Assembly (NCBI GenBank): GCA_030680405.1
Contig: JAUXVT010000001.1
Span: 1-64,000, forward strand
Direction: 5' to 3'
DNA: 64,000 bases
Origin: Thiobacillus sp.
GTDB taxonomy: Bacteria; Pseudomonadota; Gammaproteobacteria; Burkholderiales; Thiobacillaceae
In this document: positions 4,214 through 45,941 of the stretch, in pieces
How positions within the stretch are numbered: position 1 is the stretch's first letter
How the letters are laid out: each line of letters opens with the position of its first letter
Position numbers and translations under genes: made by a program
Notes under the pieces: generated by a model
What the model was told of the DNA's origin: nothing
What the model saw: only the letters and a program-made list of their open reading frames with translations
Database searches by the model: none

Positions 4214-5104
4214 CTACTCGGCGCAGTAGTCGTACAGCGGATGCCTGTCGAGACCCTGCGCCACAAAACCCCGCATCGTTTCAGGCAACTGGCGCAGCAC
4301 GTTCCACGCTGCGTCTTCCGTTCCGAACGATGCAAACACACAGGCACCCGAACCGGTCATCCGTGCCTCGCCAAATTGCGCCAGCCATTCGAGATGACGC
4401 GCGACTTCAGGATAGCGGCTGATGACCACGGGCTGCAGGTCGTTATGACCCACAAGGGAACTCCGACTTTCTACGGACTTAAGCCCATGAAAGGTCGTAT
4501 GACCCATGCCTGCGGAAAAGCGCGCTATTTTGAGGGGTGGCGTGTTGCGTGTCAATTCCGGCGCTGCAAAAATTGCAGCGGTCGGCACCTGCACCGGCGG
4601 CATCAACACCACATACCACGCCGGCGGGGCGCTCACCGGGTGCAGGATTTCGCCCACCCCTTCGGCAAATGCGGTCTGGCCGAACACGAATACCGGCACA
4701 TCGGTGCCCAACTGCAAGGCCAGCTGTTGCAGGGTTGCTCGCGGCAGATTGACCTGCCACAAGCGGTTAAGCGCCAGCAGCACGGTGGCGGCGTCCGAAC
4801 TGCCGCCCCCAAGGCCGCCGCCCAGCGGCAATACCTTGTCGAGCCGAATGCTCACGCCGGCGCCAGTCGGGGCATGCGCCTGCAGCAGACGCGCCGCGCG
4901 CACGGTCAGGTCATCGTCCTCGGCCACCCCCGGCAACTCGCCCTCGCGCACCACCCGGCCATCGTCGCGCAGTTCCAAATGCACGGTGTCGGCCCGGTCG
5001 ATCAGACGGAACACGCTCTGCAGCAGGTGATAGCCGTCGGCACGCCGGCCGACGACGTGCAGGAACAGATTGAGCTTGGCAGGAGCGGGGTAGGCGTGGC
5101 TCAT
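4214..5104 (-). CDS. ispE: 4-diphosphocytidyl-2-C-methyl-D-erythritol kinase with in-frame repeat insertion
   Basis: 296 aa. Phosphorylates CDP-methylerythritol in the MEP isoprenoid pathway. It shows PAPAKLNLFLHV at the N-terminus, the GHMP kinase glycine loop LPLGGGLGGGSSDAA near residue 92-106, and the C-terminal motif MTGSGACVFASF. Residues about 200-219 (GHTTFHGLKSVESRSSLVGH region) have no counterpart in the family as I know it and are encoded by a 60-base insertion at 4448-4507. That insertion is a copy of the element found at the 3' end of bioC. It falls between the PELTRNTPP segment and the NDLQPVV segment, so both conserved blocks stay intact and the frame is kept. The start overlaps the lolB stop codon (ATGA). 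Confidence 0.94.
   Translation of the reverse strand: MSHAYPAPAKLNLFLHVVGRRADGYHLLQSVFRLIDRADTVHLELRDDGRVVREGELPGVAEDDDLTVRAARLLQAHAPTGAGVSIRLDKVLPLGGGLGGGSSDAATVLLALNRLWQVNLPRATLQQLALQLGTDVPVFVFGQTAFAEGVGEILHPVSAPPAWYVVLMPPVQVPTAAIFAAPELTRNTPPLKIARFSAGMGHTTFHGLKSVESRSSLVGHNDLQPVVISRYPEVARHLEWLAQFGEARMTGSGACVFASFGTEDAAWNVLRQLPETMRGFVAQGLDRHPLYDYCAE
4448..4507 (-). repeat. In-frame palindromic element, copy A (inside ispE)
   Basis: Aligned over 58 bases with 39362-39420, 52 bases are identical and both copies are read in the same frame. The core on the coding strand is ATGGGC-TTAA-GTCCGT, which still folds as RNA using two G-U pairs. The stem is extended by an outer CTTTC/GAAAG pairing. A TGGGTCATA sequence occurs at both ends of the insertion, which could be a target duplication or part of the element. 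Confidence 0.82.
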
Positions 5105-9444: not shown

Positions 9445-10577
9445 CAGAACAGGCGCCCGCGCGGCATGCTGCTGTTGTTGTCCTTCTGGGCTTTCAGGTC
9501 CGCCATGATCACCGCATCGCCCGGCTTCAGCTTGCCGGAGACGATTTCGGTGTGGGCCTTGTCGCTGATGCCGGTCCTGACCGCCACCCGTACCGGTTTG
9601 CCGTCGGAACCCAGCACGTGCACCGCCGCGCCGCGTGGCGTGCTGCCTCTTTCTGCGGCCGAATCGACCTGCGGACGGAACCGCAGTGCCGCCGTCGGCA
9701 CCCGCAATACATTGGGACGGGTTTCGACTTCCACCCGCAGATTGGCAGTCATGCCCGGCATCAGGGCCAGGTCGGGGTTGGCGACGTCGACCACCACGTT
9801 GTAGGTGACGACGTTCTGCTCGGTCTTGGCGTTCAGCCGCACCTGCCGCACCGCGCCGCTGTATTCGGCATCGGGAAACGCATCGACCAGGAACTTGACC
9901 GGCTGTCCCACCTTGACCAGCCCGATGTCGGCCTCCGACACGGTGGAATCGATCTGCATCTGCGTCAGATCCTTGCCGATCTGGAACAGCGTCGGCGTCT
10001 GGAAGCTCGCCGCCACCGTCTGGCCGACGTCGACCTGACGGTTGATCACGGTGCCGTCGACCGGCGAACGGATCACCGTAAAGCCCAGATTGGTCTGGTC
10101 GCGCGTCACCTGCGCGCGCGCCACCCGCACCTGCGCCATGGCCTGCTCGTGCGCCGCCTGCGACTGGTCGAGCTCCTGGCGCGACACGTATTCCTGCCTG
10201 AACAGCGTCTGCATGCGCGTGGCGTTGGCCTCGGCCAGGCCCAGCTGCGCCTGCGCGTTGGCCAGGTTGGCGCTGCTCTGTGCCAGCGCCGCCTGGAACA
10301 GCGCCGGGTCGAGTTCGGCGAGGATCTGTCCCGCCTTCACCTGCTGGTTGAAGTCGGCATAAATACGCCGCACCGTGCCCGATACCTGGGTGCCGACGTT
10401 GACCAGGGTGACCGGGTTGAGCGTGCCGTTGGCCGACACCTGCGCGCTGATATCGCCGCGGTCCACCGCCACGGTCCGGTATTGCGGCTCGGCCGGCTTG
10501 CCCTTGCTGCTCCACCACCACCAGCCCGCTGCGGCAATCGCGATGACCAGCAGCACAAGCATTCCTGTTTTTTTCAT
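9444..10577 (-). CDS. Periplasmic adaptor (HlyD/MacA family)
   Basis: 377 aa. The N-terminal membrane anchor MKKTGMLVLLVIAIAAAGWWWW is followed by a biotinyl-lipoyl half (GTLNPVTLVNVGTQVSG), an alpha-helical hairpin (about residues 90-170, rich in Ala/Gln), a second lipoyl half (PVDGTVINRQVDVGQTV) and beta-barrel and membrane-proximal domains. It bridges the inner-membrane ABC permease to the outer-membrane TolC-like channel. The start overlaps the TolC-like gene stop by four bases and the stop overlaps the ATPase start by one. Confidence 0.92.
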   Translation of the reverse strand: MKKTGMLVLLVIAIAAAGWWWWSSKGKPAEPQYRTVAVDRGDISAQVSANGTLNPVTLVNVGTQVSGTVRRIYADFNQQVKAGQILAELDPALFQAALAQSSANLANAQAQLGLAEANATRMQTLFRQEYVSRQELDQSQAAHEQAMAQVRVARAQVTRDQTNLGFTVIRSPVDGTVINRQVDVGQTVAASFQTPTLFQIGKDLTQMQIDSTVSEADIGLVKVGQPVKFLVDAFPDAEYSGAVRQVRLNAKTEQNVVTYNVVVDVANPDLALMPGMTANLRVEVETRPNVLRVPTAALRFRPQVDSAAERGSTPRGAAVHVLGSDGKPVRVAVRTGISDKAHTEIVSGKLKPGDAVIMADLKAQKDNNSSMPRGRLF

Positions 10578-18957: not shown

Positions 18958-18998
18958 GTTTTCACCTCTGATTGAATGAGCCCTGAAGGACACCGATC

Positions 18999-19024
18999 CA
19001 CTCCGGGCTGAAGCCCGTGTGGAG
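18999..19024. repeat. Small palindromic intergenic repeat with CGGGC-TGAA-GCCCG core
   Basis: The core CGGGC TGAA GCCCG is flanked by CCAC and GTGG, giving an imperfect hairpin in the divergent gap between the M16 operon and ftsY. The core resembles that of the bioC element (ACGGGC TGAA GCCCGT), but the flanks differ, so it is probably a related hairpin type rather than the same element. Confidence 0.5.
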
Positions 19025-19085
19025 TCGACTGCCTGAATGATAAGATACAGCGTCCGTCAAACAGTTGTGCTGACTGCCTTTATCC

Positions 19086-28757: not shown

Positions 28758-29351
28758 TCAGGATGGTGCCAACAACGTCTTCAGGTCCTGGGCGATGGCA
28801 TCGGGGCTGCTGCCATAAGGCATGAGCAGTCGCAAATTCCCTTGTGGGTCATAGACATAAGTGCCAGCGCTGTGGTCGATCAAATAATCGTCCATGCCCT
28901 TCACCGGAGTCTTTTGATAGACCACTTTGTATTCTTTCGCCAACTGCTTCAGCGTCTCTTCGTCGGCAACCATCCCCAAAAAGCCCGGATTGAAGGCCGG
29001 CATGAATTGCTTCAGCAGCTCCGGGGTGTCGCGTTGCGGATCCACCGTCACGAAAATCACCTGCACCCGATCGGCCTGCGGTCCAAGCTGCTGTAGCGCA
29101 AGCGCAAAATCCGCCAGCGTGGTGGGACAGACGTCCGGGCAATGGGTGTAGCCAAAGAAGACGGCCACAGCCCTCCCCTTGAAATCCGCCAGGGTGCGCA
29201 CCTGGCCGTTGTGATCGGTCAGCCTGAAATCCCGCGCGAAGTCGGCGCCGGTGATATCGGTCGCCTGAAATGCCGGGGGCGGCGGGGCGGGCTGGCAGCC
29301 GGCCAGGGTGAACCCAGCAATAGCGCAGGTTGCGAGGAGCCAGCCTTTCAT
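28758..29351 (-). CDS. Sco1/SenC copper chaperone lipoprotein
   Basis: 197 aa. Lipoprotein signal MKGWLLATCAIAGFTLAGC with Cys19. A thioredoxin-like fold with the copper ligands CPDVC (about residue 73) and the distal His in DHSAGTYVYD. Delivers copper to cytochrome oxidase. It lies between the two oxidase clusters and overlaps the Rrf2 regulator gene by four bases, so the two are coexpressed. Either the CuA site of CtaC or the Cu-B site could be its target. Confidence 0.95.
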   Translation of the reverse strand: MKGWLLATCAIAGFTLAGCQPAPPPPAFQATDITGADFARDFRLTDHNGQVRTLADFKGRAVAVFFGYTHCPDVCPTTLADFALALQQLGPQADRVQVIFVTVDPQRDTPELLKQFMPAFNPGFLGMVADEETLKQLAKEYKVVYQKTPVKGMDDYLIDHSAGTYVYDPQGNLRLLMPYGSSPDAIAQDLKTLLAPS

Positions 29352-38672: not shown

Positions 38673-39356
38673 CTAATATATGCTGAATTCTTCGGGCAGC
38701 GTAAGCCATTGCAGCGTATCCGCCGATGAGACTCCCTGCAGAAGATAGGCCTGCACTCCCAGGCACGGACCGGGCAGGCGCGCGTACAGCGCGGCAACAT
38801 TCTCGGCCTGGCAGGCCATCGCCGGATCGACGTGGTTGCCCACCCAGCCGACCCACGGCAACTGTCGGTGTGCAATCGACTCTGCTGTCAGCAACGCATG
38901 GTTGAGGCAACCTAGGCGCAGGCCCACCACCAGCACAACGGGCAGGCCCAGACGCTGCGCCAGGTCCGCCATGTCCTCCCGCTCGTTCAGCGGCACGCGC
39001 CAGCCGCCCGCACCTTCGACGACCACCACATCGGCTGCGGCGGCCAGCCGGGCGTACGCCTCTGCGATGACGGTCAGTTCAATCCGCACGCCCGCCTGCT
39101 GTGCGGCGATATGCGGCGCGATCGGATTGTCAAAGGCATACGGATTCACATCGCGCACGGTAGCCGCCACGTTGGCCGCCTGCAGCAACGCCACCACATC
39201 CTCATTCAGCCCACCCGGCGCGTTGCCTGCCGACACCGGCTTCATCGCCGCCACGCGCAGGCCTTGCGCACGCAGCGCGTGAATCAGCGCCACCGCCACC
39301 CGCGTCTTGCCGACGCCGGTATCGGTGCCGGTGACGAACAGGCCGCGCGCCTTCAT
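38673..39356 (-). CDS. bioD: Dethiobiotin synthetase
   Basis: 227 aa. Closes the ureido ring of biotin from DAPA, CO2 and ATP. P-loop GTDTGVGKT at residues 10-18, MKPVSAG, and VVVEGAGGWRVPL are intact. Its ATG overlaps the bioC stop codon; that junction is made by the palindromic element at the end of bioC. Last gene of bioBFHCD. Confidence 0.97.
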   Translation of the reverse strand: MKARGLFVTGTDTGVGKTRVAVALIHALRAQGLRVAAMKPVSAGNAPGGLNEDVVALLQAANVAATVRDVNPYAFDNPIAPHIAAQQAGVRIELTVIAEAYARLAAAADVVVVEGAGGWRVPLNEREDMADLAQRLGLPVVLVVGLRLGCLNHALLTAESIAHRQLPWVGWVGNHVDPAMACQAENVAALYARLPGPCLGVQAYLLQGVSSADTLQWLTLPEEFSIY

Positions 39357-40327
39357 CCCAGCCCCACAAGGGGGCTCCGACTTTCTACGGGCTGAAGCCC
39401 GTGAAAGATCGTATGACCCAGCTTGCGGCGGCGCTCGCCGATGTTGAACTGGATCACCTGACGCCCGTCTTCACGCTGCGTCTTGTCGCCTGCCCAGGCG
39501 TGGCCGTAGATGACCTCAAAAGTGGCCGGCAGGCGGCCTTCCAGCCGCCGCGCTTCATACGCCTGCTCCAGCCGCGCCCACGCCGACTTGCCGAGCAGAC
39601 CGCGCCGTCGGGTCGTTGCCGCGTTGTGCGCGCCGATGCCCTTGAGGTCGCGCATCAGGGTTTTGAGATCGGCGTAAGTCAGCGTCAGCATTTCCATTTC
39701 CATCACCGGGCTGGCAAAGCCGGCGTGAATCAGCATGTCGCCGATGTCGTGCAGATCGACAAACTGGTTCACGTGCGGCGCGTCGTCGATGGCCGAAAAT
39801 GCCGCCCGCAATTCCTTCAGAGTATCGGGTCCGAAGGTGGCGAAGATCAGCAGGCCGCCCGGCGCCAGCACCTCATGAAAGCCTTTGAGTGTGGTTTCCA
39901 GATCGTGCGCCCACTGCAGCGCGAGGCTGGACCAGACGAGGTTCATGCTGTTGGGCGCGAGCGGCAGCCGCCCCATATCGGCGCACACCAGATGCGTGCG
40001 GCGAGCAGGAGAAGGCGTCAGGCGAGACAGGGCGCGCTGCGCCCAGCTCGGCTGCGGCAGGCGCGTACGCACGGCGTTCAGCATGGCCGGGGCAATGTCG
40101 ATCGCGCAGAATTCGGCCTCCGCGTAATGCGCGCGCAGATGCGCCAGCCCGTAACCGGTACCGGTGCCGACATCGAGCACGCGCCCCGGCTGCAGGGTCA
40201 TGAAATCGAGCCGCTCCAGCAAGCGATCGCACACCTCGCGCTGCAATACCGCGTGCGCATCGTAGCTGGCGGCGGCATGGTCGAAGGCGCGCCGCACTTC
40301 GGCGAAATCGAGTTCGGATTCAGTCAT
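39353..40327 (-). CDS. bioC: Malonyl-ACP O-methyltransferase, C-terminus supplied by a repeat
   Basis: 324 aa. Methylates malonyl-ACP to start pimelate synthesis. DHAAASYDAHAVLQREVCDRLLERL is near the N-terminus, the SAM motif is VLDVGTGTGYGL, and the FSTFGP-like motif reads FATFGPDTLKEL. The last 22 residues (KLGHTIFHGLQPVESRSPLVG onward) come from the element at 39362-39420, whose ispE copy encodes nearly the same peptide. The true family C-terminus has therefore been extended or replaced. The ATGA overlap with bioD is kept. It overlaps bioH by eight bases. Confidence 0.94.
   Translation of the reverse strand: MTESELDFAEVRRAFDHAAASYDAHAVLQREVCDRLLERLDFMTLQPGRVLDVGTGTGYGLAHLRAHYAEAEFCAIDIAPAMLNAVRTRLPQPSWAQRALSRLTPSPARRTHLVCADMGRLPLAPNSMNLVWSSLALQWAHDLETTLKGFHEVLAPGGLLIFATFGPDTLKELRAAFSAIDDAPHVNQFVDLHDIGDMLIHAGFASPVMEMEMLTLTYADLKTLMRDLKGIGAHNAATTRRRGLLGKSAWARLEQAYEARRLEGRLPATFEVIYGHAWAGDKTQREDGRQVIQFNIGERRRKLGHTIFHGLQPVESRSPLVGLG
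39362..39420 (-). repeat. In-frame palindromic element, copy B (3' end of bioC)
   Basis: Aligned with 4448-4507, 52 of 58 positions are identical in the same reading frame. The core hairpin is perfect here (ACGGGC-TTCA-GCCCGT on the coding strand), with outer CTTTC/GAAAG pairing across a one-base bulge. The encoded peptide FHGLQPVESRS parallels FHGLKSVESRS in IspE. The element ends 6 bases before the bioD start codon. Confidence 0.82.
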
Positions 40328-41117
40328 GGGCAAAGCGTCCGATCGCAGCGGCCACCTCTTTCCCGTGCGACAAGTGCGGCGCATGCGCGGCACGAGCAAA
40401 TTCGAGGTACTGCACATGTGGCAAGGTCTCGGCTAACCAGGCGCCTGCAGCCGGCGGCGTCAGCGTATCGAGCGCGCCGTGCAGGATCAAGGTCGGTTGC
40501 GTCAGCTGCGGCAGTTCCGCGCGCAGGTCGGTGTCGCGCAATATCGCCAGTCCGCCCGCCAGCGCCTCGCTGCTTGCGGCGGGCGCGGCCAGCAGCGTCT
40601 GCCGCAATTGCTGCAACATTGTCTTCTGCCCACTCATGCCGCGCGTCTGTAGGCTCAGAAAACGCAGCAGCGTAGCCTGCGGATCGGCGAGCAGTGCAGC
40701 GCCGAAATCTTGCAGGTCGGCGGCTGCCATGCCGCGCTGCCAGTCTTCTGTTGCAACGAATTTCGGCGTCGACGCAAGCAGAATCAGGCGCGTGATTTTG
40801 CGAGGGTAATCGAGCGCCGCGCGCATCGCCACCTGGCCGCCGAGCGACCAGCCGAGCAGCGTGGCACCCTGCGGCAGCTGCTGCGCCAAGTCGTTCGCCC
40901 AGGTTCGCAAAGTGTTTTCCACCAGCGCATCGCGTCCACCGTGGCCCGGCAGGTCAAACACGCGCACCTCGAAATCGTCCCCCAGCAGATCGGCCAGTGC
41001 GTCGAACACGCGGGCGTTCATGCCCCATCCGTGCACCAGTGCGAGGACGGGTTTAGGCGCACACCTATCCAAGCCGTCATCGCGAGGCCCGCAGGGCCGT
41101 GGAGATCCAGCGCTCAT
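40320..41117 (-). CDS. bioH: Pimeloyl-ACP methyl ester esterase, N-terminus altered by a repeat
   Basis: About 265 aa from ATG 41117; ATG 41132 and 41201 are also in frame. Alpha/beta hydrolase starting LALVHGWGMNARVFD, nucleophile GWSLGGQ, acid HGALDTLTP and catalytic His AAHAPHLSH. Cleaves the methyl ester to release pimeloyl-ACP. All available ATG starts lie in or before a dispersed repeat (41076-41162), so roughly the first 15-20 residues are repeat-encoded. The ATG that touches the bioF stop (41188) is out of frame and ends after six codons. Translation initiation of bioH has therefore probably been rearranged by the insertion. Confidence 0.88.
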   Translation of the reverse strand: MSAGSPRPCGPRDDGLDRCAPKPVLALVHGWGMNARVFDALADLLGDDFEVRVFDLPGHGGRDALVENTLRTWANDLAQQLPQGATLLGWSLGGQVAMRAALDYPRKITRLILLASTPKFVATEDWQRGMAAADLQDFGAALLADPQATLLRFLSLQTRGMSGQKTMLQQLRQTLLAAPAASSEALAGGLAILRDTDLRAELPQLTQPTLILHGALDTLTPPAAGAWLAETLPHVQYLEFARAAHAPHLSHGKEVAAAIGRFAHD

Positions 41118-44759: not shown

Positions 44760-45941
44760 TCAGCCGTAAATCTCTTCCACCGCAAAAATCCGCCGGTGTT
44801 CGCGTATGGCGTAGCGATCAGTCATGCCCGCGATGTAATCGGACACCGCGCGCGCGCCTTCCAGCGATTCGCGCGCCTGGTGTTCGGGCGGCAGCAGGCG
44901 GGCATCGCCGATAAACGCGGTATAGAGATCGGTGATGATGCGGCTGGCCTTGGCGCTCATCCGCGCCACCTTGTAATGGCGGTACAGATGATGCATCAGG
45001 AAGCGCTTGAGTTCGCGGTGCTCGTCGAGCAGCGCGGGGCTGAATGCCGCCAGCGGCGGCGCGGCACGCACCTCGGCCAAGGTCTGCACGCCGCTGTTCT
45101 CGATGTTCATCCGCGTGGTATTCACCAGATCGAGGACCAGCGTGTTGATGATGCGGCGCACGGTTTCGGTCACCACGCGGCGGCCATTCAGCGCCGGGTA
45201 TTTGGCGCGGATCTCATTCAGGTGGCGGGTAAAGATCTGCACTTCGGACAACTGTTCCAGCGTGATCAGACCGGAGCGCAGGCCGTCGTCGACGTCGTGG
45301 TTGTTGTAGGCGATCTCGTCCGCCAGGTTGGCAATCTGCGCTTCCAGCGAAGGCTGCTGCTTGTTCAGAAAGCGCTCGCCGATGTCGCCGAGTTTCTCGG
45401 CGGTGATGAGCGAGCAATGCTTGAGGATGCCCTCTCGCGCCTCGAAGGTCAGATTGAGCCCGTCGAATTCGGCATAGCGCTCCTCCAGCAGATCCACCAC
45501 GCGCAGCGACTGCAGGTTGTGCTCGAAGCCGCCGTGTTCGCGCATGCAGGCATTCAGCGCATCCTGCCCGGCATGGCCGAACGGCGTGTGGCCGAGGTCG
45601 TGCGCCAGCGACACCGCTTCCACCAGGTCTTCGTTCAGGCTCAACAATCGGGCAATGGTGCGGCCGATCTGCGCGACCTCGAGGCTGTGGGTGAGCCGGG
45701 TGCGAAACAGGTCGCCCTCGTGGTTCACGAACACCTGGGTCTTGTATTCCAGCCGCCGGAACGCGGTGGAATGGATGATGCGGTCGCGGTCGCGCTGGAA
45801 TTCGGAGCGCGGCGCAGCGGAGGACTCGGGATGCAAGCGCCCGCGAGTTTGACTCGAATGCGCTGCGTAGGGGGCATACGACTCCACACGCGCTTCAGCA
45901 TGGTGTGGATCGAGATCCCCTTGTGGGGCGAACGGTTCCAT
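44760..45941 (-). CDS. dgt: dGTP triphosphohydrolase-like protein (HD domain)
   Basis: 393 aa from ATG 45941 (a GTG two codons upstream is also in frame). HD-domain metal ligands are visible: [12 protein letters not shown] (His), [15 protein letters not shown] (HD) and [14 protein letters not shown]. Hydrolyses dNTPs to nucleosides and triphosphate in studied members. It is 10 bases downstream of aroB, with which it forms an operon common in betaproteobacteria. Confidence 0.94.

Follow-up and report, generated by a model that had tools for sequence, protein, structure and literature searches.

Why does the ispE gene of a Thiobacillus genome contain a palindromic stretch of DNA that is found again, in the same reading frame, at the 3' end of a bioC-like gene? 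We addressed this question in a stretch of 64,000 nucleotides (the window), in the draft genome it belongs to and in relatives of that genome. Our best explanation is a mobile DNA repeat that forms a hairpin and is non-autonomous; a Y1/HUH-type single-strand transposase may act on it in trans. We put the probability of this reading at roughly 0.7. Its two parts differ in strength: a mobile palindrome that is tolerated in frame is close to certain, and mobilization by a Y1/HUH enzyme falls somewhat short of an even chance. The ispE locus has the following features:

4214..5104, minus strand: host gene ispE, with GHMP kinase domains flanking the insertion and a match to E. coli IspE (1oj4) at E 1e-82
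4448..4501, minus strand: element copy in ispE, 54 nt or 18 codons, read in element frame f0; exact empty sites in relatives, covariance model E 4e-16
4460..4501, minus strand: hairpin core of this copy, 42 nt, with 12 Watson-Crick and two G-U pairs among its 14 pairs
4448..4459, minus strand: spacer of this copy, 12 nt, TCCCTTGTGGGT; the consensus is CCCCTTGTGGGG

The translation around the insertion reads ...FSAGMG-HTTFHGLKSVESRSSLVGH-NDLQ..., and in the alignment to E. coli IspE (1oj4) the insertion is found opposite a gap between two conserved blocks. A preliminary description of the locus had reported an insertion of 60 bases at 4448..4507. The insertion is real, but the empty sites of relatives define it as 54 nt (18 codons), and the remainder of that interval is old ispE sequence. 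As drawn here it runs from CATACGA to GGGT, and it can be slid from 4444-4497 to 4453-4506 with the empty site unchanged.

The IspE alignment comprised 30 genomes, with 23 rows from the same genus and seven from other families. The insertion-free state expected of IspE orthologues was found in 20 of the 23 genus rows and in all seven rows from other families, none of which (0/7) had the insertion residues; G036 has a few other residues at this place. The remaining genus rows were G000 and G012, filled at the same site, and G001, with a 17-residue insertion at a different place.

The other copies in the window, with the host of the second, were as follows:

39353..40417, minus strand: host ORF, a bioC-like methyltransferase gene with methyltransferase domains, adjoining a bioD-like ORF
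39362..39415, minus strand: 3'-terminal element copy of the bioC-like gene, in frame f0; detected by blastn and by covariance model
39374-39415, minus strand: core of this copy, covariance model E 1e-17
39362-39373, minus strand: spacer of this copy
18990..19031, minus strand: diverged B-type core directly upstream of a peptidase M16 gene (Pfam M16 downstream), E 5e-9
45875..45915, plus strand: diverged core within the N-terminal part of a dGTPase-like gene whose reading frame, on the minus strand, stays open; E 9e-5

These four copies were found by a covariance model built from 13 units of the same genome, with two extra rows that are opposite-strand echoes of the bioC-like and ispE copies; the ispE and bioC-like copies are among the 13 model-building units, and the other two window copies lie outside that set. 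The names bioC and bioD are presumptive and follow from gene position. The bioC-like ORF terminates with ...KLG-HTIFHGLQPVESRSPLVGLG-stop, in overlap with the start of the bioD-like ORF. The reported identity of its copy to that in ispE was reproduced at 52 of 58 ungapped positions, and blastn within the window aligned the two at 59/67 with one gap (E 1e-18). Likewise, both copies are read in one common frame, their peptides have three motifs in common, and the two G-U pairs described for the ispE hairpin are present (pairs 15-28 and 18-25). The core at 18990..19031 is probably outside translated sequence. The dGTPase-like gene has HD and HD_assoc domains and an uncertain start codon.

An Rfam scan of the window returned tRNAs only. 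ARAGORN called a second tRNA-Thr at 10055-10146, inside a protein-coding region and lacking an Rfam match, which is probably a false positive. The 17 nt at 28837-28853 of the window are identical to the end and junction found for the ispE copy and have no hairpin. They lie inside an ORF (28758-29351, minus strand), resemble native coding DNA and may represent a target-like site.

Many further copies of the element were found in the same genome and in relatives. With the 13-unit model 30 copies were placed in the draft genome (E ≤ 0.0052); at E ≤ 1 the model gave 40 rows, partly opposite-strand echoes, and blastn of the ispE region against the genome gave 14 matches. The 42-nt core has the architecture CATACGA-stem-CTTNAG-stem-TCGGAGT and a spacer comes next, either 9 nt and resembling CCTTTAGGG or 12 nt and resembling CCCCTTGTGGGG, which gives a common unit length of 51 or 54 nt. 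A script search found a length divisible by three in 177 of 185 cores and tandem periods of 51 (n = 15), 54 (n = 4) and 60 (n = 2) as well as 57, 72 and 56, counts that lean on search patterns favoring 42-nt cores and 9- or 12-nt spacers. The element ends, CATACGA and TCGGAGT, are partially complementary (CGA with TCG), and there is a single internal hairpin. Both sides had changed in eight of the 14 pairs among the first 13 units, and certain pairs were seen as three or four Watson-Crick types in 86 distinct cores. Copies occurred in tandem, not inverted, in nearly all groups seen.

Interior in-frame insertions that are absent from orthologues were found in the unrelated genes ispE, rsmE, fmt and an HI0933-like oxidoreductase gene. 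The rsmE site was filled in two of 30 rows (G000 and G001) and empty in 28. For the HI0933-like gene 24 of 30 loci were aligned; site 1 was filled only in G000 (1/24) and site 2 in two genomes (2/24), G006 and, partly deleted, G005. In fmt (30 rows, one cut by a contig end) a full double unit was present in G000 and a shortened one in G001 and G016, with possible traces of the insertion in G005, G021, and G022 (loci L267-L273), as if it were decaying in place through in-frame deletion. It is from the empty sites of relatives that we infer movement of the element. Old protein homology or ordinary loop growth would account for two peptides that are in the same frame and have three motifs in common, but the identity is at the DNA level, spans unrelated genes and intergenic DNA in several frames and comes with exact empty sites; we give this explanation practically no weight. 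Both it and chance similarity were ruled out by the dispersed DNA copies.

The empty sites also define the target. The base 5' of the unit was G in 123 of 141 distinct clusters, and the base 3' of it was C in 86 of 111, with A as the next base in 54 of 111; the preference for G|C is strong but not fixed. A constant target duplication was found at none of the five sites compared. At the ispE site of G012 there is no duplication, because the left target is GGGT and the element ends in GGGG. In L255 (approximately 1479-1529) the element lies within another dispersed repeat (GCGACGTGG|CAATCCAG), which provides an extra empty-site comparison.

The target sequences bear on the possibility that the unit moves as a circle which recombines with short similar sequences, through a site-specific recombinase or homology. 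Targets such as GGGTCATAACGA resemble the junction of the unit itself, GGGGCATACGA, and such similarity was found in ispE and at HI0933-like site 2; tandem arrays with the period of the unit and the filling of the same sites in non-sister genomes would also fit. The targets in rsmE, at ispE site 2 and at HI0933-like site 1 have only a few bases in common with the junction, and we consider a circle an unlikely route.

We proceeded to classify 161 distinct insertion clusters, taken from named loci (82), the best loci of relatives (28), G000 (24), G005 (12), G001 (11), G019 (2), and G038 (2), by a script with a codon model that was right for 239 of 243 windows when scored on its own training ORFs. 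In this sample, which is not random, 37 clusters were interior and in frame, 60 had one coding flank and 41 had neither flank coding. The rest were on the same strand in another frame (8), between opposite strands (2), in the same frame with a stop (2) or too close to an edge for a class (11). The script missed diverged copies (hypF, dGTPase-like) and made at least one spurious match (L020, 645-703). Merging identical sites across genomes by manual count reduces the 37 interior clusters to approximately 28 gene sites, and an open frame is part of the definition of the interior class, so that zero failures within it constitute no test. A classification of 27 loci from the order sample had orientation problems in several rows and does not enter these counts. 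In the draft genome the copies in or at protein genes were as follows:

Open-frame copies: ispE, fmt (double unit), pyruvate-ferredoxin oxidoreductase (nifJ-like), fructosamine kinase, flgJ-like, cheZ (near the start), Hpt kinase, rsmE-like, HI0933-like oxidoreductase, hypF and the L042 protein
C-terminal copies: bioC-like and dacB-like genes
N-terminal copies: cobW-like and dGTPase-like genes, where the true start may be downstream of the copy

A Pfam scan of host ORFs or their relatives (20 in the main scan, and others) found known domains around many insertions, and no family for L042 and L136.

In element orientation the 37 interior clusters used frames f0 (9), f2 (6), r0 (4), and r2 (18). 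Frames f1 and r1 contain stops in the four common versions of the element, as does r0 in the versions with the 9-nt spacer. The preliminary description had taken the frame shared by ispE and bioC, and the hairpin retained in ispE, as signs of constraint on coding and structure. Neither sign was borne out: interior copies use all four stop-free frames, and they have on average 13.69 Watson-Crick pairs of 14 compared to 13.74 in copies without a coding flank. The number of open frames was not found to be unusual either, since 1814 of 5000 shuffled 54-mers reach at least four.

These numbers also concern the idea that genes retain the hairpin because it serves them as RNA, in stability, termination or regulation. 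This idea has strong covariation in its favor, and many copies are near gene ends or have a single coding flank (60/161). It is set against interior copies that occur in both orientations, 22 of the 37 being transcribed as the reverse complement (r0 and r2), against equal pairing in coding and non-coding copies, and against the absence of the insertion from most relatives. We consider an RNA function very improbable.

Insertions that break genes were looked for among the non-interior classes. Seven of the eight clusters on the same strand in another frame were at gene junctions or gene ends. The eighth is L385 (1580-1640, G005), an out-of-frame insertion of approximately 58 nt in a short truncated gene remnant, presumably queG-like, located after the stop of an xseA-like gene. 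Of the two stop-bearing clusters, one is the N-terminus of the cobW-like gene, with the stop upstream of the gene, and the other is a stop-carrying insertion in an ORF whose product has a Mu-type transposase domain. This transposase and the remnant were the only clear breaks seen, compared to 37 open insertions.

Because the common unit length is divisible by three and stops are absent from three or four of the six frames, about half or more of the intragenic insertions would leave the protein readable and longer by 17 or 18 residues, and selection would remove most of the others. The predicted peptide is most likely tolerated rather than useful and, judged from the aligned fmt genes, would be able to decay in place.

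We suggest that the element may be moved by a transposase supplied in trans, which would recognize the single-stranded hairpin together with the conserved ends, in the manner of Y1/HUH enzymes (IS200/IS605, RAYT). Such an enzyme is suggested because the ends are conserved, the hairpin is compensatory, the insertion is clean and a G|C target is preferred. At 30 Y1_Tnp loci we found no copies, a count that could miss unassembled loci, and 20 larger regions, partly at the same places, gave only 14-nt partial matches (E 0.25). Copies occur in genomes G004, G011, G016, and G019 without a match to PF01797; in G009 and G013 the PF01797 family is present and copies are not. Shared flank repeats revealed no autonomous element in 20 regions of strain RG.

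The same results bear on another possibility, that of an outlying GTAG super-family REP for whose spread a RAYT transposase, missing or lost in these draft genomes, would be responsible. The copies are imperfect palindromes, dispersed and grouped in tandem; the core repeatedly contains GTAG or ATAG, and intragenic REPs are already known from the accessible text of PMC3733652. The recurring tag is paired or internal, with no unpaired end, and RAYT genes are described as always flanked by REPs in the part of PMC2817692 available to us, yet the Y1_Tnp loci examined were without a copy. An outlying REP accordingly seems a poor prospect to us, on a par with the circle.

The element was matched in 20 of 24 other genomes of the genus. 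In a sample of the order 24 of 399 genomes and eight of 158 genera matched, own genome included, and eight listed genomes from other genera of the same family gave no match. A wide spread outside the order was rejected, since the own genome was the sole match among 369 genomes in a sample of the class. Among the matches listed were MAGs titled "Lysobacteraceae", "Gammaproteobacteria" and others, labels and bins that can be wrong; the family is present in strains (Thiobacillus denitrificans RG, Sulfuricella sp. T08) as well as MAGs. This patchy distribution suggests horizontal spread or frequent loss.

The same site was filled in non-sister genomes in ispE (G000 and G012) and in the HI0933-like gene (G005 and G006). 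A four-protein tree placed G012 with G004 and G015 (support 100) and G000 elsewhere, with weak deeper branches, and ispE of G004 and G015 is without the insertion. The DNA flanks gave no clear sign that G000 and G012 had exchanged this locus. Possible histories are two separate insertions at the site or a single gain followed by several exact losses. The two inserts differ at nine codons, of which six change a residue and three are silent, as expected if the predicted segment is tolerated. A more far-reaching view is of a horizontally spread element, its enzyme not yet recognized, that would hit such sites repeatedly and add ready-made peptides of 17 or 18 residues to the proteins of free-living bacteria because its common unit length is a multiple of three; we hold this to be rather doubtful.

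The proposal that this is a protein-invading palindromic element behaving like the Rickettsia palindromic elements (RPEs) agrees with the dispersed copies, the 37 interior clusters and the empty sites. The preliminary description had added that no such element was known in betaproteobacteria, the group to which Thauera belongs. That claim of novelty is too strong: intragenic REPs outside Rickettsia are already published, with REPs inside ORFs of known function reported for several species including Thauera in the accessible text of Di Nocera et al. (2013, PMC3733652). We found no description of this Thiobacillus family in the literature consulted; the element and peptide strings were unmatched in the PubMed Central texts searched, a set that leaves subscription papers mostly outside.

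RPEs and the Thiobacillus element are both dispersed palindromes found in frame in genes of unrelated function, and RPEs are tolerated by host proteins. RPEs are set apart by their described size: their ten families (Ogata et al., 2000, 2002, as outlined in the available part of PMC10969869) measure about 150 bp, compared to 51 or 54 nt of presumably other sequence here, and the Thiobacillus element uses all four open frames in hosts that are free-living sulfur oxidizers. MITEs usually carry target duplications. According to the accessible text of PMC3733652 they are 70-300 bp with terminal inverted repeats of 15-30 bp; MITEs such as ERIC resemble our element in being small, non-autonomous and capable of in-frame gene fusion (PMC10969869, in part), whereas the Thiobacillus unit is shorter, with one internal hairpin and no constant duplication. 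GTAG/CGTC REPs are likewise small palindromes and some are intragenic (PMC3733652, as far as accessible), but their defining unpaired GTAG or CGTC end tag was not found in the Thiobacillus element, which has a longer core (14 pairs), fixed spacers and tandem grouping. End hairpins and, as far as the five sites compared indicate, the lack of a larger target duplication recall RAYT and IS200/IS605 systems as described in the available text of PMC2817692, while target and ends differ and no transposase gene was found beside any Thiobacillus copy examined. A plain REP, RAYT or MITE assignment was ruled out by the missing tag, the missing flanked transposase, and the missing terminal repeats and duplication.

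Rickettsia provides the best-known in-frame palindromic insertions, and REPs of several species were subsequently added. The Thiobacillus case adds free-living sulfur oxidizers, sharp empty sites, certain genes with more than one insertion and apparent decay. It makes an old question testable, namely whether such peptides are tolerated or recruited, in hosts such as IspE, Fmt, RsmE, and UvrD. The mobilizing enzyme, if found, is a possible tool for in-frame peptide insertion.

A UvrD-like helicase gene (L086) has two insertions in one C-terminal domain, at 4738-4788 (diverged) and 4957-5007. The nifJ-like genes (L015, L128, L147, and L148) have two distinct insertion sites in one gene, the second of which is filled in three differently titled genomes, one of them titled Gammaproteobacteria bacterium. 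In a purK-like gene of G001 (L252, 1517-1567) a single insertion near the N-terminus has an imperfect duplication of LPILPGA on either side.
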